In this document: positions 9,550 to 36,313 of the stretch, piece after piece | How positions within the stretch are numbered: position 1 is the stretch's first letter | Layout of the letters: each line of letters begins with the position of its first letter | NCBI GenBank assembly: GCA_011045995.1 | Contig: DSBQ01000050.1 | Location: 1 to 64,000, forward strand | Length of the DNA: 64,000 nucleotides | Source: Methanoculleus sp. | Lineage (GTDB): Archaea; Halobacteriota; Methanomicrobia; Methanomicrobiales; Methanomicrobiaceae | Reading direction: 5' to 3' | Program-made: the position numbers and the translations under genes | Notes under the pieces: generated by a model | The model's input: the letters and a program-made list of their open reading frames with translations, nothing else | What the model was told of the DNA's origin: nothing | Databases searched by the model: none

Positions 9550-9587
9550 GGCCGTCAATCAATATAGAATAAGGTAGGAGACGCGAA

Positions 9588-9971
9588 ATGAGGGAAAAAA
9601 TGAAAGTAATGATCGTGGAGGATGACGCGATCATCGGCATGGATATCGAACACCGGGTCCGCAGGCTCGGCTATGAGGTCACGGGAGTGGCGGACAACGC
9701 AAAGGAGGCGATCACCCTTGCTGCCGATACAAAACCGGATATTGCACTGATGGATATCCGCCTGCGGGGTGACATAGACGGCATCGATACCGCTCGTATG
9801 CTCAAAGAGCAGTTTGCCCTTCCCGTAATCTTCATCACCGCATACTCCGACCTGAAGATGCGCTCACGGGCGCTCGACCTCAACCCGGCCGGGTATATCG
9901 TCAAGCCCATTCGGGAAGTTGAGCTGAAAAATACCCTTGAAGAAGCTCGAAAAATAATCTTCGGGGAATAA
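9588..9971 (+). CDS. Stand-alone CheY-like response regulator
   Basis: A single 127-residue receiver domain without output domain. The acidic pair Glu11-Asp12-Asp13, the phosphorylated Asp56 in ALMDIRL, the Thr in FITAYSD and Lys in YIVKPI are all present. The GDIDGID insert after the phospho-site is shared with the receiver at 51384 and is typical of methanogen regulators of this group. GGAGA about 8 bp before ATG 9588 supports this start. It follows the HTH kinase by 38 bp and faces the same way, so the two are probably one operon. An oligo-T run at 9998-10003 may end the transcript. Confidence 0.92.
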   Translation: MREKMKVMIVEDDAIIGMDIEHRVRRLGYEVTGVADNAKEAITLAADTKPDIALMDIRLRGDIDGIDTARMLKEQFALPVIFITAYSDLKMRSRALDLNPAGYIVKPIREVELKNTLEEARKIIFGE

Positions 9972-10243
9972 GGACCCTTCATCCCTCTTTGTTTCTCTTT
10001 TTTGCAGCAACCGAATATGTGTCCTATGCAGGCGTGCGTTTTTCTGGCTGGTCGATGGAGTGATGGTGTGGCCGGGTCGCCCTTTTCTCCCTCCTGGTAT
10101 TGTGTTCTCCCCGGCCCCTGTTGTGCCGTGTGCACCGATTCGGGGCGAAGAACCCGTGGACATACCGGCCCCTTCCCGGTTGATGGCGATTCCCCCTTGC
10201 GGCTACCGGGCTGCCCTGCACTCAGACCTTGCTTCCGGGGCGG

Positions 10244-11449: not shown

Positions 11450-11589
11450 ATTGATTCGGGTCTTCCCATTCCTGGAATGAGGGGTTGGGACAGGATCTCT
11501 CCGGTGCGATCCCCAACCCTGAAGTATCATGCCTGGTTCCCTTTCTAACCCGCAATCTTCATTGTCGAGCAGCCCCTCTCCATTGTACC

Positions 11590-12168
11590 ATGACCGTTCC
11601 CGATACGCATGCGGCACTCACCGCCGATCCCCTCCCCGTTGCACGGGGGCGTGCGGGCTTTTGCGGGTACGGCGTCACCTGGCCCGGGTGCCGTCTCGTC
11701 CGTCTCACCTTCAGGAGAAAACCTGATCTCTCTGCTGACGGTGTGGTGATTCTCCGGGACAGGACCGGGGCGCACCCGGTCGATTCCGTCACCGACGTCG
11801 TCGTCGACCAGCTCCCCCAGCGGGACTGCGACGGCCTTGGGACCGCCATCTCCCGCCTCGCCCGGCGGGCGGGGCCCGACGGGGTGGACGCCCTTCCCAC
11901 ACCATCGATCTGCCGCCTCTTCTCCCTCCTGGGGATGAATCACTACAGCCTGGTGACCGCCATGCATGCTGCGGCCGGTCAGCTCCCGGATGCGACGGTC
12001 GACAGGAACCGGCTCTTCTCGCTTATCGTCTCACATCTCCCCGACGGCGAACCGCGGCCAGACATGCGGTCGATCGATGCGGTGGTGGACCTTACCGGCG
12101 GGTCGGCGGAGGTCCTCTATGATATTTCCGGGCGGTATATGAAGGGGTGCAAGAAGAGGAGGAGGTAA
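11590..12168 (+). CDS. Conserved hypothetical protein
   Basis: I do not recognise this 192-residue protein. It has no membrane segment or signal peptide. The N-terminal half looks like an alpha/beta region with GRAGFCGYGVTWPGCRLVRL, and the C-terminal half is more helical, ending in a very basic tail (KGCKKRRR). It carries codon use like its neighbours and a long frame without competing signals, which supports it being real. ATG 11590 is the first in-frame ATG of the well-behaved part. It is divergent from the dGTPase-like gene, so the shared 140 bp hold both promoters. Confidence 0.6.
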   Translation: MTVPDTHAALTADPLPVARGRAGFCGYGVTWPGCRLVRLTFRRKPDLSADGVVILRDRTGAHPVDSVTDVVVDQLPQRDCDGLGTAISRLARRAGPDGVDALPTPSICRLFSLLGMNHYSLVTAMHAAAGQLPDATVDRNRLFSLIVSHLPDGEPRPDMRSIDAVVDLTGGSAEVLYDISGRYMKGCKKRRR

Positions 12169-12238
12169 GTTTTGTTTTTATTTTTCAATAATTTTATTTC
12201 AATTGAGGCTTGCCTCAGCGATGAAATACGTCCATAAA

Positions 12239-13360
12239 TCACTTCTCAACTTTTTTCCCATGCCCATGCCGGTGATGCAGGTCAGGTACATGGGAGTGTT
12301 CGTGGGCCATTTCATTGTGAATATGCCGGTGGGCGTGGTAGCCTCCCTTGCCGAGGGGCGGGATCTCCGGGCCGTGAACGTGCCCCGCCTCCGTGGTGTG
12401 ATGGGGATCGTCATGGCGGTGGCGGTGGTCGTGCACCAGCCGTTCATGCCGGTGCTGGTGGGAATGGGTCTCGGTAATAAGAAGGCCGGCGCCAAGGACC
12501 ATCACGGCAAACGCCGCATAGAAGAGCGGGCCCGGCATCTCCTGAAAGATGATGAAGGCGACGAAGACGCCGAAGAAGGGGTTCATCGAGAAGAAGGCCG
12601 CCGACCGTGATGCCCCGAGGGACCGAAGCGCCACTAAAAAGCAGATCGTCATAAGACCGCCGAACCCCATCAGGCCGACCCCCATCGCGGCAAGCGCAAG
12701 GCCCGCGGTGGGGGGCATCGGCTGGCCGAGGAGGACAGCGAGGACGAGCATGATCATTCCCCCTGAAAGGCCCTTTATTGATACATAGCGGACCGGGTCC
12801 TTTCCCGAGAAATGGCGCGAAAGGTTTGTATCAAGCCCCCAGCAGAAGGTGGCGGCGATCACCCCGAGGGCGCCCAGAGAGATCCCGAATGCCCCCTCCG
12901 GCTCGTAGGCAAGGAGTACGCAGGCGCCGGTGATGAGGGTGAGAGCCACCCAGACCCGCCGGCCGACGGCCTCATGAAAGAGCCCGGCGGCTATCAGGGT
13001 CGTTGCGACCGCCTCAAAGCCCAGCAGAAGCGAGGCGGTCGTTGCCGGGGTGTGCTGGAGGGAGACCATGAGCACGATGGTTGCGATCACCGCCCCTGTC
13101 AGGATTGACCCGGTGACATATGGAATGTCGGAGCGTTCGAACGGCGCCTGATGCTGGTCGCGCCGGCCGAAACGGCGTGCGAAGGCATAGTAGCCGGAGA
13201 GCACGATGCCCGACCCGAGGTAGACGAACGCCGAGAGCGTCACCGGGGCAATCGCTGTTCCCAGCAGCTTTGCAAACGGAGCAGCCGCTCCGAAGAGCAG
13301 CGCTCCGGTGAGCATATAGAGGGTGGCCGTCGCCCGATCACTGATGTGTGGGAATTGCAT
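12239..13360 (-). CDS. EamA/DMT-family transporter with a histidine-rich cytoplasmic tail
   Basis: The first 290 or so residues form about ten hydrophobic helices in two EamA repeats, as in drug/metabolite transporters, with GALLFGAAAPFAKLLG at the first helix and the second repeat near residue 155. The substrate of such proteins cannot be predicted from family alone. The last 77 or so residues are not part of the family: they contain 23 histidines in HxH and HRH patterns together with Asp and Glu, a composition typical of Zn, Ni or Co binding. This suggests metal sensing or a metal substrate. Its neighbours are two signalling genes on the same strand. Confidence 0.85.
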   Translation of the reverse strand: MQFPHISDRATATLYMLTGALLFGAAAPFAKLLGTAIAPVTLSAFVYLGSGIVLSGYYAFARRFGRRDQHQAPFERSDIPYVTGSILTGAVIATIVLMVSLQHTPATTASLLLGFEAVATTLIAAGLFHEAVGRRVWVALTLITGACVLLAYEPEGAFGISLGALGVIAATFCWGLDTNLSRHFSGKDPVRYVSIKGLSGGMIMLVLAVLLGQPMPPTAGLALAAMGVGLMGFGGLMTICFLVALRSLGASRSAAFFSMNPFFGVFVAFIIFQEMPGPLFYAAFAVMVLGAGLLITETHSHQHRHERLVHDHRHRHDDPHHTTEAGHVHGPEIPPLGKGGYHAHRHIHNEMAHEHSHVPDLHHRHGHGKKVEK

Positions 13361-22324: not shown

Positions 22325-22975
22325 ATGACAGCAGACTGGCAGCCGCCGGGAAAGAACTGCGGTGCCTGCGGCGCACCCTCGTGTGCGGCGTTTCTCCGCC
22401 TGCTGTCAGAGGGAAGAAAAGAGGTCAAAGACTGTCCCTTTGGGCCGGAATCTCAACAAGGAGGGCCGAATGAAGGAGCCTTTGGTACCGGTGATCTGCT
22501 ACACGAGGCGTTCTACGGCACGACGGATTCTGTGGGCAGGGCCTTCGATTTCATCCTGGAACCGCTTCCCGGAGAACCGTCAGCACGGAAGATCGTCCTT
22601 CCCTTCCGTCCGGATATCGTCGAGAAGTGGGGGATCACTCCCGGAGCGATCGTGACCGGGCGGCCGATGGGCGCCGGCTGCCCGGTCCAGCACGTCCTTC
22701 TGGTGCTGGAGGCTTCAGAGGTAACCGGTCTTTTAACCACGCACGTCGTCGGCCCCCGCTTCTCCCGCGGCCGTGAGGTCTTTGCTATCGAGGCCTACCA
22801 TATCACCGGATTTGAGGGATATGCACGACCTGTCCGCCGGGAACCTCAGTTCGGCAGACGAATGCGGTTTTTGCCCGGGTTTTGCATGATGTACCTCGGG
22901 CATACGGGGGTCGTGAACATGGTGCTCAGGAAGGGAGCGGATATACATATTAGAGTGGAGGATATCAGGATATGA
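22325..22975 (+). CDS. Fe-S domain protein (CxxCxxxxC...C type)
   Basis: The N-terminus NCGACGAPSCAAFL with a later DCPF gives the four-cysteine 4Fe-4S (Fes) pattern also seen at the start of CODH/ACS small subunits. The following 170 residues are not recognised; they include a GRPMGAGCPVQHVLLVLE stretch, a THVVGPRF block and a hydrophobic MRFLPGFCMMYLGHTG. The 216-residue protein begins 2 bp after the GTPase gene and overlaps the marker 16 gene by 4 bp. It may supply electrons or a cluster to that protein. Confidence 0.75.
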   Translation: MTADWQPPGKNCGACGAPSCAAFLRLLSEGRKEVKDCPFGPESQQGGPNEGAFGTGDLLHEAFYGTTDSVGRAFDFILEPLPGEPSARKIVLPFRPDIVEKWGITPGAIVTGRPMGAGCPVQHVLLVLEASEVTGLLTTHVVGPRFSRGREVFAIEAYHITGFEGYARPVRREPQFGRRMRFLPGFCMMYLGHTGVVNMVLRKGADIHIRVEDIRI

Positions 22976-24195
22976 AAACCCGGGAAGAGATACAGGACCG
23001 CCTCGCATGGGGTGAGGCCGAGGTCTGGACCGCGATGGAATTCAAGACCCGCGTCCGTGAGGGGGAGGTTCCGGGGGTGGATGAGGTGGATATCGTCACC
23101 TGCGGGACCTTCGGGGTCATGTCGGGGACGGCGGCGGTGATGTGCGTGCCGGTGACAAGACCGGGCATCTTCGAGCGGGCGGATGCCGTCACCATGGAGG
23201 GGGTGCCCTGCTACCCGGGCCCCTGCCCCAACGAGCGCCTCGGCCTCGTCGACCTGATGGTCTACGGGACTGCGAAGGCCTCGCCCCGGTATGGCGGCGG
23301 CCACCTCCTCCGCGACCTCGCCGACGGAAAGGAGGTGGAGGTCATCGTCGAGTCAGGCGGGAAGACCTATGAGCATACCACCCATCTCGACGAGATCCCC
23401 TTTGCCCGGGTGATCACCACCCGCAGTGCATTCAAAAACTATGCGGCATTTGTCAACCGGGCAGCGGGTCCCGTTGATACGATCTTTTCCGTGACACCTC
23501 TGCCGGGGAATGCCTCGCAGGTGACGGTCTCCGGCTGCGGGGAAATAAACCCGCTCGCAAATGACCCCTATCTCACCCATATCACGCCGGGATATCCCCT
23601 GATGCTCAACGGGTCGGCAGGGTATGTGATGGGAGAGGGGACCCGTTCGACCCCGGAAAAGCCGAATATCGCAGCATTCGCCGATCTTTCCGGGATGGTC
23701 AGCGAGTTCATGGGCGGATTTGTCACCTCAGGAGGCCCCGAATGCCTCACCTCGGTCGCTGTCCCCCTGCCGGTGCTCAGTGAGGCGGATATCGCCCGCC
23801 TCTCGGTATTCGACGAGGGCTGCTCCCTCCCTGTCAATGATATCGAAACACGGACGACACTTGCCGAGACGACGTACGCCGATATCTGGCAGGGGACCGA
23901 AACCATGGTGACCGTCCACCCGGAGTATTGCCTCTTCTGCGGGACCTGCACCGCCGCCGAGGCATGCCCGACCAGGGCGATCATGATGGGTGGGGGCATC
24001 ATGCACGCCCGGTGCGTTGCCTGCGGGACCTGTGTCGGGGCCTGCCCGAACGGGGTCTATATGATGGAGATGGGAACGGTTCCCGTGGAGGGTGCCCGCG
24101 TCCCGGTTGCGCTTCGCCAGTCCGACCGGAACCGTGCGGAACGGATCTGCGACTACCTGAAACAGGAGATCCTCTCGGGGGTGTTCCGGTGGTGA
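22972..24195 (+). CDS. Methanogenesis marker 16 metalloprotein (DUF39/COG1900 plus two 4Fe-4S motifs)
   Basis: Residues 1-300 are the DUF39 domain with TCGTFGVMSGTAAVMCVPV and the EGVPCYPGPCPNE block carrying conserved cysteines. Residues about 318-370 hold a ferredoxin dicluster, CLFCGTCTAAEACP and CVACGTCVGACP. Other DUF39 proteins, with a separate ferredoxin, convert aspartate semialdehyde and sulfide into homocysteine in methanogens; the marker 16 form is found in methanogens. Here it directly precedes cysteate synthase and ComDE, whose product sulfoacetaldehyde is also an aldehyde to be made into a thiol. A reductive thiolation of sulfoacetaldehyde to coenzyme M is therefore a specific hypothesis, not a demonstrated function. 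It overlaps both neighbours. Confidence 0.88.
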   Translation: MKTREEIQDRLAWGEAEVWTAMEFKTRVREGEVPGVDEVDIVTCGTFGVMSGTAAVMCVPVTRPGIFERADAVTMEGVPCYPGPCPNERLGLVDLMVYGTAKASPRYGGGHLLRDLADGKEVEVIVESGGKTYEHTTHLDEIPFARVITTRSAFKNYAAFVNRAAGPVDTIFSVTPLPGNASQVTVSGCGEINPLANDPYLTHITPGYPLMLNGSAGYVMGEGTRSTPEKPNIAAFADLSGMVSEFMGGFVTSGGPECLTSVAVPLPVLSEADIARLSVFDEGCSLPVNDIETRTTLAETTYADIWQGTETMVTVHPEYCLFCGTCTAAEACPTRAIMMGGGIMHARCVACGTCVGACPNGVYMMEMGTVPVEGARVPVALRQSDRNRAERICDYLKQEILSGVFRW

Positions 24196-25463
24196 ATAAA
24201 AAGTACCGCCTCCGCTGCCCGTCCTGCGGGATGGAGGTCCCGGACCATTATACGAACTCCTGCCCGGCGGGATGTCCCGGTCTCATCCGGGCTGAGTATG
24301 CTGCCCGCCGTATCACCCCGCACCCATTTCCCGGGATATTTTGCTATGCGGACTGGCTGCCGGTGGAAGGGACGCTTCCCACCCAGGCGGGCCCCGTCAC
24401 CTACTGTTCAACAGAGCTGGCACGCGAGGCAGGTCTGGCCAATCTCTGGATCTGCTTTAACGGGTACTGGCCGGAGAAGGGAGCGCTGATGAGGACCTGC
24501 TCATTCAAGGAGCTCGAGGCATGGCCGACGATGCTGCGCCTCCAGGAGAAGGGAAAAGGCATCATGCAGGTCTCATCAGCGGGAAACACCGGCCGGGCCT
24601 TTGCCGAGGTCTCCGCCCAGTGCGGCTATCCCCTCGTCCTCGCCGTCCCGGTCCGCGGGATCGACCGGATATGGACGACACGCCCGGCAAAGCAGGTCTT
24701 CCTTGTCGCGGTGGAGGGGGACTATACCGATGCCATCACTGTCGGGGACGCACTCTGCTCCCTGCCCGGCCTCGTTCCGGAGGGAGGCGCAAAGAACCCC
24801 GCCCGGCGCGACGGGATGGGAACCGTCATGCTCGACGGGACGCTGACCTGCGGGCGGCTGCCCGACTGGTATGTGCAGGCGGTAGGCAGCGGCACCGGCG
24901 GCATCGCTGCCTGGGAGATGGCCGAGCGGCTCCGAAGGGACGGCCGCTGGGGAGCGGCGCTGCCGCGGCTCCTCCTCTCCCAGAACCTCCCCTTCACCCC
25001 GATGGTGGATGCGTGGCAGGACGGGAGACGCACTCTGCTTCCAGGGGATTTCGTGGATGCAACGTCGCGTATCGCAGACGTCTGGGCCGACGTGCTTACG
25101 AACCGTCACCCCCCCTACGATCTTCCCGGCGGCCTCAGGGATGCCCTTCTGGCGACCAACGGAATGATGGACCCGGTCAGCAACGCCGAGGCGCACGCGG
25201 CAGGCCGCCTCTTTGCCGAGTTGGAGGGATGCGACCTCGACCCCGCGGCGGCGGTTGCGACCGCATCGCTGCTGCGCAGTGCCGAAAACGGAACGATCGG
25301 GAAGAACGATACGGTGCTCCTCAACATTACCGGGGGAGGGTATGAACGGGTCAAGAAGGACTTCACCCTTCACCGGGTCCGGCCGGCCTGCACGGTGCCC
25401 GCCGGTGCCGGGACGGCGGAGGTGGAGCGACTTTTGGCGGGGTGGATGAAGGATTATGCATGA
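24192..25463 (+). CDS. Cysteate synthase
   Basis: This PLP enzyme makes L-cysteate from O-phosphoserine and sulfite, the entry to coenzyme M in Methanosarcinales and Methanomicrobiales. The protein resembles threonine synthase but with a zinc-ribbon-like N-terminus (CPSCGMEVPDHYTNSCPAGC). The likely PLP lysine lies in RTCSFKELEAW, and the phosphate-binding glycine run is AVGSGTGGI. The SSAGNTGRAFA block is typical of the fold. The start is GTG 24192, overlapping the marker 16 stop by 4 bp, giving 423 residues. The next gene, ComDE, acts two steps later in the same pathway. Confidence 0.9.
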   Translation: MNKKYRLRCPSCGMEVPDHYTNSCPAGCPGLIRAEYAARRITPHPFPGIFCYADWLPVEGTLPTQAGPVTYCSTELAREAGLANLWICFNGYWPEKGALMRTCSFKELEAWPTMLRLQEKGKGIMQVSSAGNTGRAFAEVSAQCGYPLVLAVPVRGIDRIWTTRPAKQVFLVAVEGDYTDAITVGDALCSLPGLVPEGGAKNPARRDGMGTVMLDGTLTCGRLPDWYVQAVGSGTGGIAAWEMAERLRRDGRWGAALPRLLLSQNLPFTPMVDAWQDGRRTLLPGDFVDATSRIADVWADVLTNRHPPYDLPGGLRDALLATNGMMDPVSNAEAHAAGRLFAELEGCDLDPAAAVATASLLRSAENGTIGKNDTVLLNITGGGYERVKKDFTLHRVRPACTVPAGAGTAEVERLLAGWMKDYA

Positions 25464-26568
25464 AGAAGAACTGATTCAGGTGGTACGGGAGGCCGGGGCA
25501 GAGGTGATGGCGACCCTCCCGTGTGACAGGACGAAGGATCTCTGCACCCTTCTCCCGCGGCATTTTCGAGAGATCTCCCTCCTGCGGGAGGAGGACGGGG
25601 TGGGGCTCTGCGCCGGCCTTGCCCTTGCCGGCAGGCGGCCGGTGATGCATATCCAGTCGTCCGGCCTGGGGAACATGCTCAACGCCATCCTCACCCTTCC
25701 CTCCCTCTACCGCCTCCCCCTCCCGGTGCTCGCGTCCTGGCGCGGTGTTTACCGGGAGCGGATCGAGGCGCAGGTGCCGTTCAACAGCCGTCTTCCCGGC
25801 ATTCTCGCGGCGGCGGGCATCGCGTGCACCGAGATTCACACGCCAAACGATCTCGCCCTTGCGGGTGAGGTGGTTGCCGACGCCTACGAAGAGAGACGCC
25901 CGCATGTGGCGCTCATCTCCCCCGCCGTCTGGGAGGGGGAGCACTGCGATGCAGTGGTTCCGGCGCCGTTTCCCCTGCGGGAGCGCGAGGTTGTATGTGA
26001 CCTGCACCGGACCATTCATCCGCCGGTGATGCGGCGCTACGATGCGATCGCCGCCGTCGCCCCCCATCTCGGGGATGCCCTCGCCGTGGCAAACCTCGGC
26101 GTTCCCTCAAAGGAACTCTATGCAATCAGGGACCGGCCGGAGAACTTCTATATGCTCGGCAGTTACACTCAGGCGACCCCCATCGGGTTCGGCTGTGCCC
26201 TCGGGCAGGAACGCGATGTGGTGGTCTTCGACGGGGATGGCAGCCTCCTGGGGACGGCGATTTTGCCCGTCATCGCCTCGGAAGCTCCGCCAAACCTGAC
26301 CATCATCGCCCTTGACAACGGCGCCTTCGGGTCGACGGGCAGCCAGATGACCCACGCATGGGCCGGGGCGGACCTCGAACTGATTGCCCGTGGCGCGGGG
26401 TTCGTGAGCACCGCAAAGGTGCAGACGCCGGAGGAACTGGTCGAGGCGTATATGTCCGGGGAGAAGGGGCCGAGGTTTATTCATGCGGTGATCGCTCCGG
26501 GCAATGCGGATGTCCCGAATATCCCGCTCTCGGCTCTCGGGATACGGGATCGGTTCTGCAGGTGCTGA
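25456..26568 (+). CDS. comDE: Sulfopyruvate decarboxylase, fused ComD-ComE
   Basis: The thiamine-diphosphate enzyme decarboxylates sulfopyruvate to sulfoacetaldehyde. Residues 1-165 are the ComD (pyrimidine-binding) part, with the catalytic Glu region LREEDGVGLCAGLALAG and HIQSSGLGNMLNA. Residues about 190-370 are ComE (diphosphate-binding), with GSYTQATPIGFGCALG and the metal motif starting GDGSLLG and ending in DNG. In many methanogens these are two genes; here they are one frame of 370 residues. The ATG lies inside the end of cysteate synthase (8-bp overlap). A T7 run follows the stop at 26593. Confidence 0.95.
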   Translation: MHEEELIQVVREAGAEVMATLPCDRTKDLCTLLPRHFREISLLREEDGVGLCAGLALAGRRPVMHIQSSGLGNMLNAILTLPSLYRLPLPVLASWRGVYRERIEAQVPFNSRLPGILAAAGIACTEIHTPNDLALAGEVVADAYEERRPHVALISPAVWEGEHCDAVVPAPFPLREREVVCDLHRTIHPPVMRRYDAIAAVAPHLGDALAVANLGVPSKELYAIRDRPENFYMLGSYTQATPIGFGCALGQERDVVVFDGDGSLLGTAILPVIASEAPPNLTIIALDNGAFGSTGSQMTHAWAGADLELIARGAGFVSTAKVQTPEELVEAYMSGEKGPRFIHAVIAPGNADVPNIPLSALGIRDRFCRC

Positions 26569-26639: not shown

Positions 26640-27665
26640 ATGCTTACCGGAGCGAAGAGGAGAAACGGGGCGGTCGCGCTGGTTCTCGTCGGTGCAATGC
26701 TTCTGTCTCTTGTTCTTTCGCTCAGCATCGGCCCGTCGACGGTCCCGATCTCCTCATTCGTTCCTTCGGATCTGTTCGGTGCCCTTGCGGCCTTTCTTTC
26801 CGGGGAGGATGTGGCCCCCTTCTTCCCGGATGAGACAGCATACCTGATCGTCTACTCGGTCCGTATGCCCCGCGTCCTTGCAGCGCTCCTTGTCGGAGCA
26901 GGGCTTGCAGCGGCGGGGACGGCGATGCAGGGCCTCTTCAGGAATTCCATGGCCGACCCCTATATCATCGGCACCTCCTCAGGAGCCGCCATGGGGGCAG
27001 CAGTTGCGATTGTCTTTCTTGGCGGGATGTTTCTCCCTGTTTTTGCCTTTGTGGGGGCGGCGGGGGCGACTTTTCTCGTCTATGCCCTTGCCACGAGAAA
27101 CGGCCGGGCGCCGGTGGAGACGCTCCTCCTTACGGGTGTTGCGCTCTCCATGTTCTTCTCCTCCATCCTCTCGTTTCTGATGTACTCGGCCGGAAAGAGC
27201 CTGCACCAGATAATCTACTGGATGATGGGCGGGTTCTGGACCGTCGGGTGGGACGACGTCGCCCTGTCCATCCTGATAATTGCGGGGTGCGTCATCCTCA
27301 TCGTCTATGCAAAAGACCTCAATATCCTCTCCCTCGGTGAAGAAGACGCCGTGCATCTCGGGGTGAACGTGGAGACCTTCAAGCGCATCCTCCTCTTCGT
27401 CTCGTCATTTATTACCGGTATTGCCGTCGCTATTGCAGGCTCCATCGGGTTCATCGGGCTGATTACCCCGCACGTGATGCGCCTCGTCGTCGGGCCGGAT
27501 CATCGGATGCTCTTCCCTGCCGCCATGGTCGCAGGAGGTATCTTCCTTCTCTGGGCCGACACCGTCACCCGGACGTTTCTGGGGGACATGCCGGTCGGCG
27601 TCATCACGGCGTTTGTGGGCGCCCCCTTCTTCGTCTTCCTCCTGCGCAGGAGGTCGAGGGCATGA
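26640..27665 (+). CDS. BtuC/FecCD-type ABC transporter permease
   Basis: A 341-residue permease with about nine or ten membrane helices, of the family that imports cobalamin, haem and siderophores. Family blocks are YSVRMPRVLAALLVGAGLA, GTAMQGLFRNSMADPYIIG, GTSSGAAMGA and the ATPase-contacting region ending SIGFIGLITPHVMRL. The start is set at ATG 26640, just before the first helix; the open frame upstream reads over comDE. TATTTTATTT near 26609 is a plausible TATA box. It is joined to the ATPase gene by a 4-bp overlap. The BtuF-like and DUF4430 proteins downstream favour a corrinoid substrate. Confidence 0.92.
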   Translation: MLTGAKRRNGAVALVLVGAMLLSLVLSLSIGPSTVPISSFVPSDLFGALAAFLSGEDVAPFFPDETAYLIVYSVRMPRVLAALLVGAGLAAAGTAMQGLFRNSMADPYIIGTSSGAAMGAAVAIVFLGGMFLPVFAFVGAAGATFLVYALATRNGRAPVETLLLTGVALSMFFSSILSFLMYSAGKSLHQIIYWMMGGFWTVGWDDVALSILIIAGCVILIVYAKDLNILSLGEEDAVHLGVNVETFKRILLFVSSFITGIAVAIAGSIGFIGLITPHVMRLVVGPDHRMLFPAAMVAGGIFLLWADTVTRTFLGDMPVGVITAFVGAPFFVFLLRRRSRA

Positions 27666-28912
27666 TGCGTACCGACCACCTCTCGGCAGGATACGGCACA
27701 GAGGACATCATCCGCGGCATCTGCCTCGATGCCGCCGAGGGGGAGTTCATCGGGATCATCGGGCCGAACGGCTCGGGAAAGACGACGCTCATCAAGGCGA
27801 TGAGCCGTGTGCTTGCCACAAGGAAGGGTGCGGTCACCATTGAGGGACGCCTTTTGGATGACTACGACCCAAAGGAGCTTGCCCGGACACTCGGGGTCGT
27901 CCCGCAGGAGACATCGGTGGGGTTCTCCTACACGGTGGGGGACATCGTGATGATGGGCAGGTTCCCCCACCACACGAGGTTCACCCGTGAGAGTCCGGAG
28001 GACTACCGGGTGGTGGAGGAGGCGATGGCGGTCACCGGCATCGGCCACCTGGCCGCCCGTCCGGTAACTGAGATATCCGGCGGCGAACGCCAGCGGGTGA
28101 TCATTGCCCGGACACTTGCCCAGCAGCCCCGCTTTCTCCTCCTCGACGAGGCGACGGCACACCTTGACATCAATCACCAGGTGGAGATCCTCTCGATCAT
28201 CCGCGGGCTGGGGTCCGGGGTGACGAAGATCGGGGTCTTCCATGACCTGAACCTCGCCTCCGCCTACTGCGACCGGATCCTTCTCATGGCGGGCGGCGAG
28301 GTCCGGGCGATGGGCACTCCCGAAGAGGTGCTCACCCGTGAGAACCTCCGGGAGCATTACGGCATCGACGCGCTTATCCAGACCCACCCGGTGACCGGGC
28401 GCCCGATCGTCCTCCCGCTTGAGGGGACGGCACACCGCTCCTCCTCTTCCACAGGATCCCCACCGGCACCATCGACACGGGTCCATCTCGTGTGCGGCGG
28501 CGGGTCGGGGTCGGGGCTCATGTACCGCCTCACCGCCGCCGGGTGTGAGGTGACGGCCGGCATCCTCTGTGACGGCGATTCTGACACCTGCACGGCCGCA
28601 GCGCTCGGCATTGAGTTCCTCTGCATCCCTCCCTTCTCGCCGATCGGGCCGGAAGAGACGGCGGCGCTTAAGGAGATGGTCGCTGCTGCCGATGTTGCGA
28701 TTCTCACGGCAATGCCAATCGGTCCCGGCAATCTCGCCAATCTCGAGGTCCTCTGCGACCAGGAGACGACGCCCGTGATCATCTATATGCCCGAGGGAGG
28801 ACAGTTCACCGATTATACCGGTGGAAAACTCGATGCTGTTCTTAAATGCATTGAGGAGAAGGGGGCGGGGCGTATCAGCCGGGTAGAGGATCTTCTCTCT
28901 TCGTTGAAATAG
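27662..28912 (+). CDS. BtuD/FecE-type ABC transporter ATPase with a C-terminal extension
   Basis: Residues 1-255 are a standard importer ATPase: Walker A GPNGSGKTT, Q-loop VVPQE, signature ISGGERQRV, Walker B FLLLDEATAHLD and switch His in VFHDLN. Residues about 270-416 form an additional alpha/beta domain beginning VHLVCGGGSGSGL, with GILCDGDSDT and IIYMPEGGQFTDYTGG, resembling a small nucleotide- or corrinoid-handling fold. Such a tail is seen on some archaeal cobalamin transporter ATPases, but its job is unknown to me. It pairs with the upstream permease (4-bp overlap). Confidence 0.92.
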   Translation: MMRTDHLSAGYGTEDIIRGICLDAAEGEFIGIIGPNGSGKTTLIKAMSRVLATRKGAVTIEGRLLDDYDPKELARTLGVVPQETSVGFSYTVGDIVMMGRFPHHTRFTRESPEDYRVVEEAMAVTGIGHLAARPVTEISGGERQRVIIARTLAQQPRFLLLDEATAHLDINHQVEILSIIRGLGSGVTKIGVFHDLNLASAYCDRILLMAGGEVRAMGTPEEVLTRENLREHYGIDALIQTHPVTGRPIVLPLEGTAHRSSSSTGSPPAPSTRVHLVCGGGSGSGLMYRLTAAGCEVTAGILCDGDSDTCTAAALGIEFLCIPPFSPIGPEETAALKEMVAAADVAILTAMPIGPGNLANLEVLCDQETTPVIIYMPEGGQFTDYTGGKLDAVLKCIEEKGAGRISRVEDLLSSLK

Positions 28913-28998
28913 AAGAAGAAATGGGGGATGATACCATTTCCGGACCGTCATTATTTTTGCATCCGTTGCTTATCAGAAAAAAATGATATAATTTAAAT

Positions 28999-29018
28999 TA
29001 TCTGGAGTTAACCAGATA
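28999..29018. promoter_or_regulatory. Inverted repeat in the promoter of the DUF4430 gene
   Basis: TATCTGG (28999-29005) and CCAGATA (29012-29018) form a perfect 7-bp inverted repeat with a 6-bp spacer. It follows an A/T-rich TATA-like stretch (28984-29000) and lies 30-50 bp before the GTG start at 29049. The position suits a repressor operator; a hairpin in the leader is the alternative. Confidence 0.45.
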
Positions 29019-29048
29019 TCCATATTAAAAACAAGTGGGGTTTGGTTA

Positions 29049-32000
29049 GTGAAAAAGAATATTTATTTATATGCTTCCTTCGTCTTTGCCGTGGCCCTGC
29101 TCATGGTGCCGGCATCGGCGTTCAGTTATACGGGAAATGTCACCCTGACGCAGGGGATGACCTTCTCCCTCGATGGCACGCATGTGGAATCGACTACCTC
29201 GGGGCTCGGTGCCCTTGAGAACTTTTCGCATACCTATGATAATGGAACGGGGTTTGGCTATGAGGTGACATATTATAGCTGGGGGGCGTTCCTCGATGCC
29301 ATTAATGGGGTTTCAAGCGCTTCTGATTGGTCGGAATACTGGAATTTCTACGTAAACGGCAATGCAAGCGATGTCGGCGCGTCCTCGTATGAATGCACAG
29401 CAGGTGACGTCCTCGTCTTTGCGTACGGGCCGTGGGGAGCCAATGAGACGACCGCCTCCGATGTGGTGAACATCACGGTCGAAGCAATTCACCCCTTCCC
29501 CGGCTGGACGGACGGCGTGATGATGGTAAACGGAACGGCGCTTGACGTTGACGGTCACCGAGAATCGAACACAACGGCCTTTGCCGCATTCCATGAGGCG
29601 TCGCAGGTGGGGAACTTCTCTTACGATTATACGTATTATGACGAATGGGGATTCTTTGTAGGGCCTGTCGGCGGTGTCGACTACACACCGGGGCCTCCTC
29701 AGAAATACTGGCAGTTCTGGTATAATGGCGCCCCATCGATGACCGGTATGTCCGGGGTACAGGTGAAGGCTGGCGATGTGGTGGAACTTCTCTATGGTCC
29801 GGACGGGATGGCGTACGGGGACGCGGAATACGCTGTCTCCATCACCATCGATGACATGCTCGCCTTCCCCGGATGGGAAGGGACGGTCGCACTGGACAAT
29901 TCGACCTTCCTCTTCTCCCCCTCCGAAAACCCGGGGGCGGAGTACCTCGTCAACAACGACACCGATCTCGGCGCCTTGGTCCAGGCCTCCGGGGCCGGGT
30001 TCTTTGATCTCTATACCAGTGACATGTATTATGCCACCTATGGGACATTCTCCCTCGAAGGCATTGCGCATACCAACCAGACCCCTACCTGGTCATATTA
30101 CTGGGCGGTCTACATCAATGACGACTACGCCCCGACAGGCCTTGGCGGCAACAGGGTCGAGACCGGGGATGTCGTACGCTTTACCTATACAGAATATGCG
30201 ACCGGCGCTGAACTGACCCATGTAAATATTACAGTGGGCAATGTGTCAGGAACGGCAGATACAACCGGACCGGCGCACGGCACCGGCCCGAACACCGCCA
30301 CCATCCGCTGGCAGACACAAGTGGAAGAGGCCCCGGACGGATCACCCCTGCTCTATGACGGGAAGGTCTACATTGCAACCTGGCCGGACATGTTCTTTGG
30401 CGAGACGGATGAGGAGATGTACCTCTACAGCTTTGATGCCAGCACCGGGGCACTTGGGTGGAAGAACACCCTTGCAGACGGGTATGGTTCCGTCGCACCC
30501 CTTGCTGTCGGCGCGGATAAAATCTTTGCACGGGGTACCAACGGCGTCCTTTATGCCGTGAACGCCGTATCCGGTGCGACGGTATGGAGCACCCCGCTCG
30601 ATGACCCCGCCGTGGTCATCCCCTGGTCACAGGTGAACTCCGGTCCCTGTGTCTGGAACAATCGTCTCTTCGTCCTCTCGGCCCTGAACGGGACGATGAA
30701 CGTCTTCACTCTCGACGGAGCCCTGATGTACCAAAAAGAGACGGGCGGCACCATCGAGTACTTCACCACCCCCGTTGGGTACGGGGATACCGTCTATTTT
30801 GCCGGAAACGGGACGCACACGCTCTATGCCATCGATGATCTCACCTACCAGGAGCGCTGGAACGTCACCACCCAAGAGCTTATCAGGTCTTCACCCGTCT
30901 GCGGTGGCGGGAACGTCTACTTCTCCACCTATGATTCGCTCTTTGCGGTCAATGCGATAGATGGATCTCCTGGATGGGCGGTTCCAATCAACGGGACTAC
31001 CGGCACTCCCGCCCTGAAGGACGGCTTCCTCTACGTCGGGGAGACGGACGGTCTCCACTGCTACAACGCCGCAACCGGTGCAGAGGAGTGGCACTTTAGC
31101 TCAGCGAAAGTGAGCGTTTCCCCGGCAACAGACGCTGCAAACGTCTACTTTGCAACGAGCAACGCAGCGGGAACGGTCTATGCCCTTGATGCGGTCTCGG
31201 GCGGCGAGGTATGGCACTACACCCAGACGGCACCCTCCGATGGGAACTGGGCGTCGTTCTACTCCTCCTCCCCGGCAACTGCCGACGGCCGCCTCTATAT
31301 CGGCGGCGAGTATTACAACAACGTCTACTGCTTCGGCCCCGCCATCCCTGGTGTAACGCCGGGCGGTGGCGGAGACGGCCCTGATCCCGTTTCCCCCTCC
31401 CCACCATCCGTACCCCTCACCTCCCTCACCCTCACCCCTGGCACCTTCACCACTACGGGCGAGAGCGGGAAGACCTACAACGTGAGCACCACCACCGCCC
31501 TCGGTGTCCTCAACGCTGCCGGGCTCTCGTTCGGGGTGGATGACGGCTTCTACAATGAATACGGCTCGCTCTTCGTCGATGAGATCGGCGGGCTTGCCAA
31601 CAGCGGGTCCTCGGGCTGGATGTACATGGTCAACGGCGCAAGCCCGGGCAGCGGTGCAAACACCTACACCCTTACAACCGGCGATGAGGTGGTCTGGTAC
31701 TGGAGCGAGTCGATGTCCAGCACACCTGCAGCGTCGGACCACGTCTACGGGTATAAGGTGACCATCGCCGCCACGACGGGCGGCAGCAGCGGCGACGGCG
31801 GAACAGGTGGCGGAACCGGCGATACGGCTGCGACCGGCTCATCGACGGTCGGTCGCCTCAGCACCATCGGCCTTCCCGCCGGGGCGTCGCTGACGATCGA
31901 CCATAACAGGATGGTGCTCAGCATAGATATGGCGGCGGCCGCCGCGGCAGGCGAGAATGTCGCAATGGAACAGAATACCTTCATCGTTACGAGAGGCGGC

Positions 32001-32684
32001 GCCACACTCTTCATCCGGTTTGTAGACTACAAAGTGGTCGGCGGGATCATCAGTGGGCAGGTGGAGTCCATCAGGGTAGTGACACTGCCGGTGGGAACCG
32101 ATCTGCCTGATGCGGGCCATGTGACCGTCACGGTAGGCGCGGTGCTCTATTCCATGCCCTTCGGGGCACAGATAATCACCTCGCTCGGCACCGGGCCATC
32201 ACCGGAGGAACTACAGGACTTGCTTGCATCTCTTTCCGATGCGCCCTATCCGGCGGCTGTCGCCTGTGCGGTCGATGTGAGTGAGATACATCTCGTCAAC
32301 GGCGAGGATATCGGAGCGGCAATCGTTACCATCGGGATGGACGAATCGTGGGTGCGTGCCCACGGAGGAGCTAAGAGCCTGTACATCCTACATATCGGAA
32401 ACGATGGGAATGTCGAGATAATCGTCCCCACGGTCAGATTCGAAGGCAGCACTGTCTGCATAGAAGCCGAATCGCCAGCAGGCCTCTCGTCCTTTGTACT
32501 TATTGCAGCAGGGGAGCCTCCGGTAGCGGATATCACATCGGAGGGAGAGGAGACACCTGAAGCGGACGCCGCAGGTGGGGAGACGGAACCGACACAGACC
32601 CCGTTCCCGGCACTTGCCGGCCTTGCCGGTGCAGGACTGGCTATAGCATGGCGGAGTACAGGATATGACAGGAAACAGAACTAG
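29049..32684 (+). CDS. Large secreted DUF4430/PQQ-propeller protein with C-terminal anchor
   Basis: A 1211-residue exported protein. A signal peptide (KNIYLYASFVFAVALLMVPA) is followed by three DUF4430-like domains (about 25-140, 150-270, 275-400), a PQQ-like beta-propeller (about 415-775), a fourth DUF4430-like domain (about 790-905), a glycine-rich linker, a beta-rich domain similar to PGF-pre-PGF regions, and a C-terminal hydrophobic segment preceded by TPFPALAGL and followed by RKQN. DUF4430 is related to the C-terminal cobalamin-binding domain of animal transcobalamin and intrinsic factor. The GTG start at 29049 leads straight into the signal peptide. It overlaps the next gene by 20 bp. 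A surface corrinoid-binding role is inferred from domain type and neighbours. Confidence 0.88.
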   Translation: MKKNIYLYASFVFAVALLMVPASAFSYTGNVTLTQGMTFSLDGTHVESTTSGLGALENFSHTYDNGTGFGYEVTYYSWGAFLDAINGVSSASDWSEYWNFYVNGNASDVGASSYECTAGDVLVFAYGPWGANETTASDVVNITVEAIHPFPGWTDGVMMVNGTALDVDGHRESNTTAFAAFHEASQVGNFSYDYTYYDEWGFFVGPVGGVDYTPGPPQKYWQFWYNGAPSMTGMSGVQVKAGDVVELLYGPDGMAYGDAEYAVSITIDDMLAFPGWEGTVALDNSTFLFSPSENPGAEYLVNNDTDLGALVQASGAGFFDLYTSDMYYATYGTFSLEGIAHTNQTPTWSYYWAVYINDDYAPTGLGGNRVETGDVVRFTYTEYATGAELTHVNITVGNVSGTADTTGPAHGTGPNTATIRWQTQVEEAPDGSPLLYDGKVYIATWPDMFFGETDEEMYLYSFDASTGALGWKNTLADGYGSVAPLAVGADKIFARGTNGVLYAVNAVSGATVWSTPLDDPAVVIPWSQVNSGPCVWNNRLFVLSALNGTMNVFTLDGALMYQKETGGTIEYFTTPVGYGDTVYFAGNGTHTLYAIDDLTYQERWNVTTQELIRSSPVCGGGNVYFSTYDSLFAVNAIDGSPGWAVPINGTTGTPALKDGFLYVGETDGLHCYNAATGAEEWHFSSAKVSVSPATDAANVYFATSNAAGTVYALDAVSGGEVWHYTQTAPSDGNWASFYSSSPATADGRLYIGGEYYNNVYCFGPAIPGVTPGGGGDGPDPVSPSPPSVPLTSLTLTPGTFTTTGESGKTYNVSTTTALGVLNAAGLSFGVDDGFYNEYGSLFVDEIGGLANSGSSGWMYMVNGASPGSGANTYTLTTGDEVVWYWSESMSSTPAASDHVYGYKVTIAATTGGSSGDGGTGGGTGDTAATGSSTVGRLSTIGLPAGASLTIDHNRMVLSIDMAAAAAAGENVAMEQNTFIVTRGGATLFIRFVDYKVVGGIISGQVESIRVVTLPVGTDLPDAGHVTVTVGAVLYSMPFGAQIITSLGTGPSPEELQDLLASLSDAPYPAAVACAVDVSEIHLVNGEDIGAAIVTIGMDESWVRAHGGAKSLYILHIGNDGNVEIIVPTVRFEGSTVCIEAESPAGLSSFVLIAAGEPPVADITSEGEETPEADAAGGETEPTQTPFPALAGLAGAGLAIAWRSTGYDRKQN

Positions 32685-34668
32685 AACAATCTTTTTTTTG
32701 ATAGTGCTGCTCTGCAGCATCGCATGTGTGCCGGGAACCGTCGCGTACCCACTCCCGGCGGACGCACCGCAGATTGAATCAGCCCTTGCGTATATGCAGT
32801 CCTGCCAGCGCGAGGACGGCGGATTCGGCGAGGAGGGCCGGGAGACGAGTGCCGCAACCTCGACGTGGGTGATTATGGCCATCGTCGGCGCAGGCGAGGA
32901 CCCGTCTACATGGACAAAAGGCGGCGTCTCAGCTGTCGATTACCTGCATTCGATAGCCGCGGAGACCGTCGCCATCGACGGTACGGCCGAGACCGCGAAG
33001 ATGATTCTCACCATCCTTGCGGTAGGTGAAGATCCGTATGATTTCGAGGGAACGGACTTCGTCGCCCTCCTGAAGGCGAAGCAGGAATCGTCGGGCTCAT
33101 TTGGCGATCATATCTATACGACGAACTGGGCGTTGATGGCGCTCGCGGCCGCCGGCGAGGACACCTCCAAGGCCGTACAATGGCTCAGCGCCCAGCAGAA
33201 CGCGGACGGCGGGTTCGGGTGGACACCGGGGGCCGAGAGTGACTGCGACGACACCGCCTCTGCTGTCGAGGCCCTTATAGCGGCAGGGACTCCCCGCTCC
33301 TCCCCGGCCATTACAAAGGCAACGGCCTTTTTCCGCACGGTACAGTGCGAGAACGGCGGGTTCAACTACGGCGGCTCGAGTGCGGCAAACACTGCATCGG
33401 ACGCCTGGGTCATCCAGGCGCTCGTTGAGGCCGGCGAGAACCCCGCCAGATGGACAAAGGAGGGAAAAAGTCCCGTGGACCACCTCCTTTCTGCCCAGGC
33501 CGCAGAGGGGTACTTCAAGTGGACCCCGATCCTCACGGACAATCCCTGCCGGATGACGGCGTCGGCCGTTCCGGCACTCCTTGGTCGGCCCTACCCCGTC
33601 CTGCCGGATGACGTCGGCTCCCCGGTTGCCGCCGGGCCCACAGCATCCCCGGCCCCCATCGAATCACCGGCAGTGACTGCTTCTGCATCGGCGGCTCCAC
33701 CACCCAAGGCTGCGACCGGCGGCCCCATCACCGTGACGGATGACTTTGGTGTGACTCTCACCCTTCCGAACGTTCCGCAGCGGATCGTCTCGCTTGCCCC
33801 ATCGAATACCGAGATTGTGTATGCCGTCGGCGCCGGTGACCGGGTCGTCGGCGTGACCGACTACTGCGACTACCCGGCCGCGACCGCGGATGTGGAGAAG
33901 GTCGGCGGGTACAGCACGGTAAACATCGAGAAGGTGGTTGCCGCAAAGCCCGATCTGGTCCTTGCGGCGCTTGGGAATACCGAGGAAGTGGTCACCTACA
34001 TGCAGGGGCTCGGCCTTGCCGTCGTCTCCCTGAACCCTGCCTCCATCCAGGGAGTCGTCGAGGACGTCCGGATCGTCGGGACGGCGACCGGCAATGCACA
34101 GGAGGCAAAGGCCATTGCTTCTTCCATGGAGCAGAGGATTGCGGCGGTCCGCTCGAAGGCATCGGCCGCGACCGAATGGCCCACCGTTGCCCACATCGTC
34201 TGGTACGACCCGATCTGGGTGAGCGGGAGGGATACCTTCCAGGACGAGATGTTCGAGATTGCCCATGCGAAGAACGCCTTTCCGGGTGTCGAAGGATGGC
34301 AGATCGTTGGCCTTGAGGATTTCATCACCACCAACCCGGACATCATCCTCGTCAACTCCGGCAGTGGCATGGGGGAGGCCAGCTATGACCTCATCTACAC
34401 CTATATGATGGAAGAACCACGCCTCCAGGGGGTCACCGCCGTCCGTGAAGGACGGGTGTACATCGTTGAATCGGATATGATTGACCGGGGCGGCCCACGG
34501 ATCGTCGATGCGCTCGAAGTGGTCGCGGCAGACATCCACCCGGACATCTTCGGTGACGCAGGGACCCCCGTTCCTGCTGAGACGCAGAGCCCGATGCCGT
34601 ATGCCGGTGCCCTTGCCGGATGTGCGGCCGGCCTGTTCGTTGGTCTCCGGGGGAGAGGCCGGGCATGA
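32665..34668 (+). CDS. Alpha/alpha-toroid repeat protein fused to a BtuF-like binding protein, membrane anchored
   Basis: After a signal peptide (residues about 8-30), residues 30-310 contain prenyltransferase/squalene-oxidase-type repeats with xxQxxDGGFG motifs (CQREDGGFGEEG, AQQNADGGFGW, QCENGGFNYGG). A Pro/Ala/Ser linker leads to a class III periplasmic-binding domain (about 354-640) with RIVSLAPSNTEIVYAVGAGD and VGVTDYCDYP, as in BtuF. A C-terminal hydrophobic helix ends in RGRGRA. The toroid fold is also the N-terminal domain of animal intrinsic factor and transcobalamin. The BtuCD-type genes two genes upstream supply the matching transporter, so corrinoid capture is the best reading. 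Confidence 0.87.
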   Translation: MTGNRTRTIFFLIVLLCSIACVPGTVAYPLPADAPQIESALAYMQSCQREDGGFGEEGRETSAATSTWVIMAIVGAGEDPSTWTKGGVSAVDYLHSIAAETVAIDGTAETAKMILTILAVGEDPYDFEGTDFVALLKAKQESSGSFGDHIYTTNWALMALAAAGEDTSKAVQWLSAQQNADGGFGWTPGAESDCDDTASAVEALIAAGTPRSSPAITKATAFFRTVQCENGGFNYGGSSAANTASDAWVIQALVEAGENPARWTKEGKSPVDHLLSAQAAEGYFKWTPILTDNPCRMTASAVPALLGRPYPVLPDDVGSPVAAGPTASPAPIESPAVTASASAAPPPKAATGGPITVTDDFGVTLTLPNVPQRIVSLAPSNTEIVYAVGAGDRVVGVTDYCDYPAATADVEKVGGYSTVNIEKVVAAKPDLVLAALGNTEEVVTYMQGLGLAVVSLNPASIQGVVEDVRIVGTATGNAQEAKAIASSMEQRIAAVRSKASAATEWPTVAHIVWYDPIWVSGRDTFQDEMFEIAHAKNAFPGVEGWQIVGLEDFITTNPDIILVNSGSGMGEASYDLIYTYMMEEPRLQGVTAVREGRVYIVESDMIDRGGPRIVDALEVVAADIHPDIFGDAGTPVPAETQSPMPYAGALAGCAAGLFVGLRGRGRA

Positions 34669-35780
34669 AGGCACCGTATGCAATACCCCTCGTTCTCCTT
34701 CTTCTCCTCTGTCTGCCCGCAACGGCAGTCGCAGAGGCAGCCCCACTCTGGACCCACGTGATCGGAGGAAAGGGGGTCAGTGCGGTGGCCATCTCCGGCG
34801 ACGGCACTACTGTATGTGCGGCAGGAGAGGACGGGCTTATCTGCCTCTCTGACGAGGGAACGGTACAGTGGAGCTCTCCGCTGCGTATGTTTGACGTGGC
34901 CCTTTCGGACGACGGGGGCGTTGTCGTCGCCGGGGGATTTGACCTGCATATCTTCGGTGCAGACGGCAGGACGGTCGGGGGAGGAAAGGTTTTCAATGTA
35001 ATCCGAAGTGTTGACGTGCTGCCCGACGGTACGGCATATATCGCATCGACCGACGGGTCGACCATCCTTGAAGGAACGATCCAGAGGGATACGGCGGCAG
35101 AAACGGATACGGGAGAGGATTACTTCGCCGTGGCACTCGTCCCCGGCACCGACTATCTTGCAGCGGGCACGGAGAGCGGGTCGGTGCTCCTCTCCTCCCC
35201 CGGCACGGGCACGGTCTACTGGGAGTACCGGGCATCCCCCAAACCGGTGAACGACATCGCCGCATCGGACGGTGCCCGGACGATCGCGGCGTGCACCGGT
35301 GACGGTATGGTCTACGCGCTCTCCCGCACGGGCCTGCTCCTCTGGTCCCTTCCCTTTGACCGCCCCACAGGGGTCGCGGTGAGCCGTGACGGCGAATCCA
35401 TCGCCGTCTGCGGATCAGAGGGCTTTGCCTTCTATGACCGTTCGGGAACGAAACTGACATCCGTCTCCACAGCAGACAGGTGCAGGGGGATTGCACTGAA
35501 TGCCGATGCCACGCTTGCCGCCGTTGCGAGCATCCGCGATGTCTCGCTCTACTCCCTCGATAATGAGGGGGGGGCGGGAGGTACCGGTGAGGGAGCCCCA
35601 ACAGCAACGATCGCCGGCGACGGTGCAGGAGAGATGCCCTCTGCATCCCCATCACCGGATGGCCTCTTCGCAGCAACCCCGGACAGCCCGGCAGAGCCGG
35701 CACCGACCCGGGCGGCGCCGGCGGCTCTCGTGGCAGTAATGGCGCTGATCGGCCTTGCCGGTCCCGGCAGAAAAATGTGA
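34665..35780 (+). CDS. Secreted beta-propeller protein with C-terminal anchor
   Basis: A signal peptide (APYAIPLVLLLLLCLPATAV) precedes seven or so WD/PQQ-like propeller blades (residues about 30-300), seen as repeats such as VSAVAISGDGTTVCAAGEDG and VALSDDGGVVVAGG. A Pro/Ala/Ser-rich stalk (about 305-345) and a C-terminal helix (APAALVAVMALIGLAG) ending GRKM follow. It starts with ATG overlapping the preceding stop by 4 bp, so it belongs to the putative corrinoid-capture operon. No ligand can be predicted. The propeller may help display or dock the other two surface proteins. Confidence 0.82.
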   Translation: MKAPYAIPLVLLLLLCLPATAVAEAAPLWTHVIGGKGVSAVAISGDGTTVCAAGEDGLICLSDEGTVQWSSPLRMFDVALSDDGGVVVAGGFDLHIFGADGRTVGGGKVFNVIRSVDVLPDGTAYIASTDGSTILEGTIQRDTAAETDTGEDYFAVALVPGTDYLAAGTESGSVLLSSPGTGTVYWEYRASPKPVNDIAASDGARTIAACTGDGMVYALSRTGLLLWSLPFDRPTGVAVSRDGESIAVCGSEGFAFYDRSGTKLTSVSTADRCRGIALNADATLAAVASIRDVSLYSLDNEGGAGGTGEGAPTATIAGDGAGEMPSASPSPDGLFAATPDSPAEPAPTRAAPAALVAVMALIGLAGPGRKM

Positions 35781-35824: not shown

Positions 35825-36313
35825 CTATTCGATCATCCGGACGATCGACTCGAAAGCGCCCACGTACGACTCCGGATTCGGCTTGATGATCGTCACCGGT
35901 ATGTCCACGATTCGCTCTACGAGGGTGGAAAGGATGGGGGCGCAGATGATCCCCGCCGCACCGTCCTTCTCTGCCCGGACGGCGGCTATGATGCATTCTT
36001 CCATCGTATTGGCCGTATAGCCGCGGATACGGTAGGTTTTGCCGCCCGCGGTCTCGCTCGTCCCTTGGAGCTCGTCAAGGAGAAACTTAACGCCGATGAC
36101 CGCGACAAAGTCCCGCTCACGCGGGTCGAGGGCATCGGCGATCGCCTTTACGGTCGAAAACCGGGGGTCGCGCTCCCCGGAAGTGATCTTGTAAAGGGTT
36201 GCCGCCGGGATGCCTGCCCGTTCGGCAAGCTCCTTGATGCTCATATCCTTGCGTTCGAGTTCCTCTTCGAGTGCGGTCCTGAAATCAGTGGTAAAGACCC
36301 GGTGGGAGAACAT
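35825..36313 (-). CDS. HTH transcriptional regulator with C-terminal ligand-like domain
   Basis: A Cro/C1-type helix-turn-helix (about residues 10-65: SIKELAERAGIPAATLYKITSGERDPRFSTVKAIADAL, read in two parts) is followed by a 90-residue alpha/beta domain with TANTMEECIIAAVRAEKDGA and IICAPILSTLVERIVDIPV, which resembles PrpR-N-like sensor domains of methanogen regulators. At 162 residues it is complete. A palindrome overlies its predicted TATA box, suggesting autoregulation. It is divergent from the aldehyde dehydrogenase gene and convergent with the propeller gene, so either locus might be its target. Confidence 0.85.
   Translation of the reverse strand: MFSHRVFTTDFRTALEEELERKDMSIKELAERAGIPAATLYKITSGERDPRFSTVKAIADALDPRERDFVAVIGVKFLLDELQGTSETAGGKTYRIRGYTANTMEECIIAAVRAEKDGAAGIICAPILSTLVERIVDIPVTIIKPNPESYVGAFESIVRMIE

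Follow-up and report, generated by a model that had tools for sequence, protein, structure and literature searches.

A putative corrinoid-capture locus of Methanoculleus that combines BtuCD, DUF4430 domains, and a toroid fused to a BtuF-type binding domain

The animal vitamin B12 carriers transcobalamin II, intrinsic factor, and haptocorrin consist of an alpha/alpha toroid and a beta-grasp domain of the DUF4430 type. Burroughs, Balaji, Iyer and Aravind (2007) described transcobalamin-type domains in prokaryotes, including fusions to toroids and propellers and an association with CbiO/CbiQ operons, and reported them from Methanosarcina, Methanospirillum, and Archaeoglobus (PMC1796856). Because archaea make B12, the ligand of the archaeal proteins was left open in that study (PMC1796856). 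This study analyzed a 64,000-nucleotide (nt) stretch of Methanoculleus sp. DNA, hereafter the window (GenBank assembly GCA_011045995.1, contig DSBQ01000050.1, positions 1 to 64,000 of the forward strand). Five plus-strand genes spanning 26640-35780 were identified by using Pfam and NCBIfam profiles; they encode a BtuC-type permease, a BtuD-type ATPase, a protein with DUF4430 domains and a propeller, a toroid-BtuF fusion, and a second propeller protein (Table 1). The searches recovered, at their expected positions and on the plus strand, all genes and domains named in an initial annotation made from the sequence. That annotation regarded the locus as built from animal domains, a view opposed by the argument of Burroughs et al. 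for a bacterial origin of these domains in animals (PMC1796856). The host genome is approximately 1.57 Mb in size and 82% complete, and its relatives are Methanomicrobiales.

We propose, with a probability of roughly 0.68, that the locus captures and imports corrinoids at the cell surface, holding the corrinoid between the toroid and the fourth DUF4430 domain, which are on two proteins, and handing it to BtuF. The secreted and probably anchored DUF4430 protein would present several DUF4430 domains around a propeller and capture a corrinoid, which may be cobalamin, cobinamide, or another cobamide. A second tethered protein would contribute the toroid, a flexible linker, and the BtuF domain. The corrinoid would be held between the toroid and the fourth DUF4430 domain and, by means of the linker, released beside the tethered BtuF domain on the same chain as the toroid; the loaded BtuF domain would then dock on BtuCD for ATP-driven import. 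The split clamp specifically, together with the hand-off to BtuF, stands at about even odds. We infer that the ligand in this archaeon is a corrinoid.

The permease, ATPase, and binding protein of a BtuCDF-type importer are encoded together, and their best NCBIfam models are BtuC, corrinoid ATPase, and PGF-anchored binding protein/BtuF. The permease scored 348 bits against the vitamin B12 permease BtuC model and 238 bits against the F420-0 permease model, and the ATPase scored 343 bits against the corrinoid ATP-binding cassette (ABC) ATPase model and approximately 250 bits against the haem and F420-0 models; the corrinoid models therefore lead by approximately 100 bits. Both scores fell below the equivalog cut-offs (348 vs 461 bits for BtuC and 343 vs 537 bits for the ATPase), and the corrinoid label is therefore that of the best model rather than a certified one. 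The strongest independent evidence on the cargo was provided by riboswitches over bacterial relatives of the toroid. Among 37 bacterial relatives scanned, 24 have the cobalamin riboswitch RF00174 upstream from their first toroid or DUF4430 gene and on the strand of that gene, mostly at a distance of 16-280 nt; many of the relatives lacking it lie on contigs whose start falls within the operon. The riboswitch-bearing relatives span Firmicutes, Chloroflexi, Actinobacteria, and Parcubacteria, and in some bacteria a toroid gene on its own directly follows a cobalamin riboswitch. Among 80 neighboring proteins, no iron or haem families stood out; an iron or haem locus, the alternative raised by the initial annotation, was consequently rejected. 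The best models for BtuCD, the riboswitches over bacterial homologues, and the lack of iron or haem enrichment agree with the assignment to corrinoid uptake made in that annotation, and we consider this assignment very probable.

The secreted protein matched DUF4430 (PF14478) in four stretches, with 134 bits for the whole protein; the presence of four domains, which had been claimed from the sequence, was confirmed in that all of them exceeded the gathering score. In the host genome, DUF4430 was confined to this protein. Human transcobalamin II (the 398 query residues are identical to those of PDB 2bb5) scored 25.0 bits on Pfam DUF4430, for which the gathering score is 23.8. With a profile of the archaeal DUF4430 domains, the first match among solved structures was transcobalamin-1/haptocorrin (E=3e-4), followed by intrinsic factor (E approximately 0.3) and transcobalamin-2 (E approximately 1.4). 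An hhalign comparison with transcobalamin II yielded E=1.7e-4, with the correct domain and the invariant tryptophan aligned. By these sequence comparisons, DUF4430 is the transcobalamin C-terminal domain, and the likeness drawn earlier to the animal carriers holds for this half. In a tree of 67 DUF4430 domains, the fourth domain of the window protein grouped, with support of 98/97, with DUF4430 domains that are fused to toroids in Archaeoglobus and some Firmicutes; we therefore predict that it is the partner in the clamp. Domains 1-3 appear to be additional capture domains.

Pfam and NCBIfam placed the toroid and the BtuF domain in one reading frame, as had been noted previously, and 34 of the 36 relatives fetched share this fusion; of the other two, one stops at the end of its contig and one comes from a frameshifted assembly. 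The resemblance of the toroid to that of transcobalamin survived in part: the profiles revealed a genuine six-repeat toroid, but its nearest solved relatives by sequence were squalene-hopene cyclases and prenyltransferases rather than the animal alpha domain. PF01122 (Cobalamin_bind) did not match the window toroid in Pfam and did not appear in the PDB search. For this half, the case for animal kinship is therefore one of fold, domain partnership, and context. Many toroid residues are invariant across relatives. The BtuF domain matched BtuF of V. cholerae (2e-25) and E. coli (5e-23), and two Peripla_BP_2 proteins were found in the host genome, one of which is the toroid-BtuF protein. In a tree of 79 toroids, all toroid-BtuF rows formed one clade (100/98) together with four truncated or broken copies, and its sister group was the Archaeoglobus toroids (98/93). 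The fusion was found only in this well-supported Methanomicrobiales clade, which fits a single origin.

To the extent covered by 150 Methanomicrobiales genomes, the toroid and DUF4430 co-occur beyond chance: strong DUF4430 matches were present in 41 of the 46 toroid-bearing genomes and in 3 of the 104 others (Fisher p=1.3e-27, a value that ignores shared ancestry). The scan of the collection used two peptide patterns from the toroid, and distant relatives are under-sampled. The gene order in Archaeoglobus (loci L126-L128 and L131) is reciprocal, with a propeller-DUF4430 protein, then DUF4430 and toroid in one protein, and then BtuF alone. DUF4430-toroid fusions were found in Archaeoglobus, Parcubacteria, and Firmicutes. 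In Methanomicrobiales, the toroid is split from the DUF4430 protein and joined to BtuF; the change may have occurred in either direction. These fusions and linkages across archaea speak for concerted action of DUF4430, toroid, and BtuF, and the reciprocal fusions and the co-occurrence support joint work of the toroid and DUF4430.

Structural models were available for two of the fused proteins. The AlphaFold2 model of the Archaeoglobus DUF4430-toroid protein had a mean predicted local distance difference test score (pLDDT) of 86, with values >90 over most of the toroid. Its PDB matches were cyclase and farnesyltransferase (FTase) toroid enzymes. Such an outcome was expected, given that its domains follow each other in an order permuted from that of transcobalamin, which Foldseek cannot align. 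A Falkowbacteria relative has the toroid first and DUF4430 second, and its toroid is 39% identical to that of the window. The 13 best PDB matches of its AlphaFold2 model (pLDDT 83) were all transcobalamin, intrinsic factor, or haptocorrin, and the alignments spanned both domains. The modeled protein thus agrees with the animal carriers in fold and domain order, without reproducing their closed packing.

Some results weigh against the proposed reading, and part of them concern the cargo. In the PDB, the BtuF domain matched a staphylococcal iron-binding protein best (4m7o, 7e-31). RF00174 was absent from the window and from the archaeal relatives scanned, which is expected for archaea. CbiD, which marks de novo corrin synthesis, was present in 126 of the 150 genomes, including the host, and the locus therefore does not mark auxotrophy. 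CbiZ was present in 145 of the 150, again including the host; because both genes are near-universal in the order, the use of the locus as a marker of corrinoid auxotrophy was rejected. The locus would supplement corrinoid synthesis or recycle corrinoids. The same architecture might instead carry a different tetrapyrrole such as haem or F430, an iron chelate, or F420-0, given the wide range of cargoes handled by BtuF-like proteins and FecCD permeases, the iron binding of the best match of the BtuF domain, and the suggestion by Burroughs et al. of a distinct archaeal metabolite because archaea make B12 (PMC1796856). We consider a different cargo improbable in view of the lead of the corrinoid models over haem and F420-0, the cobalamin riboswitches over the bacterial homologues, and the lack of a prominent iron or haem family among the neighbors.

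The remaining adverse results concern the clamp. The PDB search revealed no specific kinship in sequence between the toroid and the animal alpha domain, and the hhalign match of the toroid to transcobalamin II was weak. DUF4430 domains 1-3 fell outside the toroid-partner clade, and the Falkowbacteria model deviated from the animal carriers by a root-mean-square deviation of approximately 24 Å, without reproducing the closed arrangement. A corrinoid importer might therefore operate without a clamp formed in trans, with the DUF4430 domains, the propellers, or both binding alone in the manner of BtuG and the toroid serving as a spacer or docking module. Such an importer would accommodate the three DUF4430 domains outside the clade, the conservation of two propellers in the locus (BtuG being a B12-binding propeller; PMC6143338), and the lack of a closed clamp in the superposition of the Falkowbacteria model. 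It would account poorly for the DUF4430-toroid fusions in three groups, the many invariant toroid residues, and the stand-alone bacterial toroid genes right behind cobalamin riboswitches, and phmmer searches with the DUF4430/propeller protein, a comparison of sequences and not of propeller folds, gave BamB-type matches only and no kinship to BtuG. We regard the clamp-free importer as unlikely and favor capture between the toroid and the fourth DUF4430 domain.

Table 1. Features of the putative corrinoid-capture locus in the window
Feature	Coordinates	Strand	Evidence or remark
BtuC-type permease, 341 amino acids (aa)	26640..27665	+	Pfam FecCD 1.3e-89; best NCBIfam model vitamin B12 permease BtuC 8e-104
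BtuD-type ATPase, 416 aa	27662..28912	+	ABC_tran 2e-30; best NCBIfam model corrinoid ABC transporter ATPase 3e-102
AT-rich element with palindrome, putative promoter/operator	28985..29017	+	Upstream of the surface-protein genes; 33/33 nt identical in three congeneric genomes, one copy per genome
Secreted protein, 1211 aa: signal peptide, three DUF4430 domains, PQQ propeller, fourth DUF4430 domain, stalk domain, hydrophobic tail	29049..32684	+	Pfam DUF4430 1.9e-39 (4 stretches); PQQ_2 6e-33
DUF4430 domains 1-3	29211-29426, 29571-29795, 30054-30191 (span 29211..30191)	+	Hidden Markov model matches
PQQ/BamB-type beta-propeller	30279..31343	+	PQQ_2; phmmer to BamB and 3hxj
DUF4430 domain 4, proposed toroid partner	31494..31706	+	54 bits
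Conserved stalk region after DUF4430 domain 4, without Pfam match	31824..32543	+	Aligned in 30 related proteins
Toroid-BtuF fusion, 667 aa: signal peptide, linker, hydrophobic tail	32665..34668	+	Pfam, NCBIfam
Alpha/alpha toroid, six repeats	32746..33594	+	SQHop_cyclase_C (PF13243) 3e-15; Prenyltrans (PF00432) 9e-14
Pro/Ala/Ser-rich linker from toroid to BtuF domain	33595..33774	+	Read from translation
BtuF-type substrate-binding domain	33784..34473	+	Peripla_BP_2 6e-36
Second propeller protein (WD40/PQQ-type), 371 aa, signal peptide, hydrophobic C-terminal tail	34665..35780	+	WD40 3e-8; PQQ_2 9e-9

Overlaps of 20 and 4 nt connect the last three genes, an arrangement as in an operon. The palindrome of the AT-rich element reads ATCTGG-AGTTAA-CCAGAT, and the element is a candidate operator of the surface operon; its full conservation in three congeneric genomes, with a single copy per genome, makes a separate promoter for the surface genes probable. 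Its use as a regulon marker was dropped because no second strong copy was found in the genome. The surface anchoring proposed in the initial annotation is predicted from hydrophobic, basic C-terminal tails, but no PGF-CTERM match was found among the window proteins. The second propeller is in frame with toroid-BtuF in locus L111 of Methanoculleus UBA430 (9491-13045), where a single open frame of 1185 aa holds the toroid, BtuF, and the propeller. The toroid, DUF4430, and propeller proteins might function in adhesion or in the S-layer and be no more than neighbors of BtuCD, as the S-layer homology (SLH) anchors on Firmicute homologues, the occurrence of DUF4430 and propellers in large surface proteins, and the apparent promoter of the surface genes would allow. 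This is quite implausible because the toroid shares a frame with the binding protein of the transporter in those 34 of 36 relatives, and BtuC and BtuD accompany the toroid in 28 of the 36 loci, several of the others being contigs that end.

Other genes lie near the locus. Directly upstream of btuC and abutting it, positions 22972-26568 contain HcyBio, PALP-family (cysteate synthase-like), and ComDE-like genes; the Methanogenium loci also have a ComDE-like gene and HcyBio upstream. These neighbors would suit a locus serving coenzyme M or homocysteine metabolism. Such a role is very remote, given that the neighborhood is missing in Methanoculleus, Methanofollis, Methanocorpusculum, and Archaeoglobus, where the core is kept. 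An HTH_3 regulator gene on the minus strand (35825-36313) is convergent with the locus and is kept in the same place in Methanogenium; it is a candidate regulator of the locus. The BtuD protein carries a C-terminal extension of approximately 165 aa past the ATPase domain (28410-28909).

The related loci included several variants. A second, stand-alone BtuF occurs beside the toroid-BtuF protein in L110, L112, L115, L116, L125, L129, and L130, and it may form a two-step relay. Two or three tandem toroids per protein were observed in Chloroflexi (L163:937-3693 and L167:2633-4549), with L163 behind a cobalamin riboswitch, and giant proteins with toroid plus DUF4430 in Methanosarcinales/Methanothrix (L170:3587-10858 and L179:9746-15379). 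The toroid of L153, from a record titled Bacteroidaceae (RGIG9419), is nearly identical to that of Methanocorpusculum RGIG409, and this contig is probably mis-binned. Several frameshifts break the locus of Methanogenium cariaci JCM 10550 (L119) and are probably sequencing errors.

In the open-licence literature, we found no description of the toroid-BtuF fusion, the partnership with BtuCD, the reciprocal order in Archaeoglobus, or the riboswitch link, and nothing on archaeal B12 capture beyond Burroughs et al. (2007). The fusion and the split arrangement with BtuCD thus appear to be undescribed. The proposed reading would answer the question raised in 2007 regarding the purpose of the archaeal transcobalamin-like proteins. 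One domain pair would link animal, bacterial, and archaeal B12 capture, kept together by fusion, splitting, and operon. The findings further suggest that competition for corrinoids at the cell surface persists even among methanogens able to synthesize them. If the clamp indeed forms in trans, capture and delivery would belong to one tethered machine.

The locus resembles several known systems, each with differences. Like the proteins of Burroughs et al., which carry the domain they named SLBB, it encodes secreted DUF4430/SLBB proteins with toroid or propeller fusions in a putative B12-scavenging operon; their operons, however, are of the CbiO/CbiQ (energy-coupling factor, ECF) type, and a text search of the paper did not find BtuF (PMC1796856). 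Firmicute operons (e.g., Desulfoscipio L140; the SCO2321 family) likewise have separate toroid and DUF4430 proteins, which are SLH-anchored and under a cobalamin riboswitch, but they use tandem CbiO-type (ECF-type) ATPases instead of BtuCD and lack the BtuF fusion. The BtuC, BtuD, and BtuF domains are shared with the vitamin B12 importer BtuCD-F, whereas the archaeal BtuF has an N-terminal toroid and a predicted C-terminal tether and is accompanied by an extra surface capture protein. In Bacteroides, BtuG/BtuH capture B12 at the surface ahead of a transporter, as proposed for the archaeal locus, with involvement of a propeller (PMC6143338, PMC10404256); the archaeal propeller belongs to another family by sequence, and the archaeal system has no BtuB/TonB and a different, archaeal envelope. 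Unlike the animal carriers, the archaeal system divides its domains between two proteins and has four DUF4430 domains in place of one; its toroid is cyclase-like by sequence, fused to BtuF, and without PF01122. There is perhaps an even chance that the archaeal surface assembles a transcobalamin in trans, which would close over a corrinoid on the transporter's own binding protein, that Methanomicrobiales and Archaeoglobus represent reciprocal shuffles of this assembly, and that the animal carriers are its single-chain relative.

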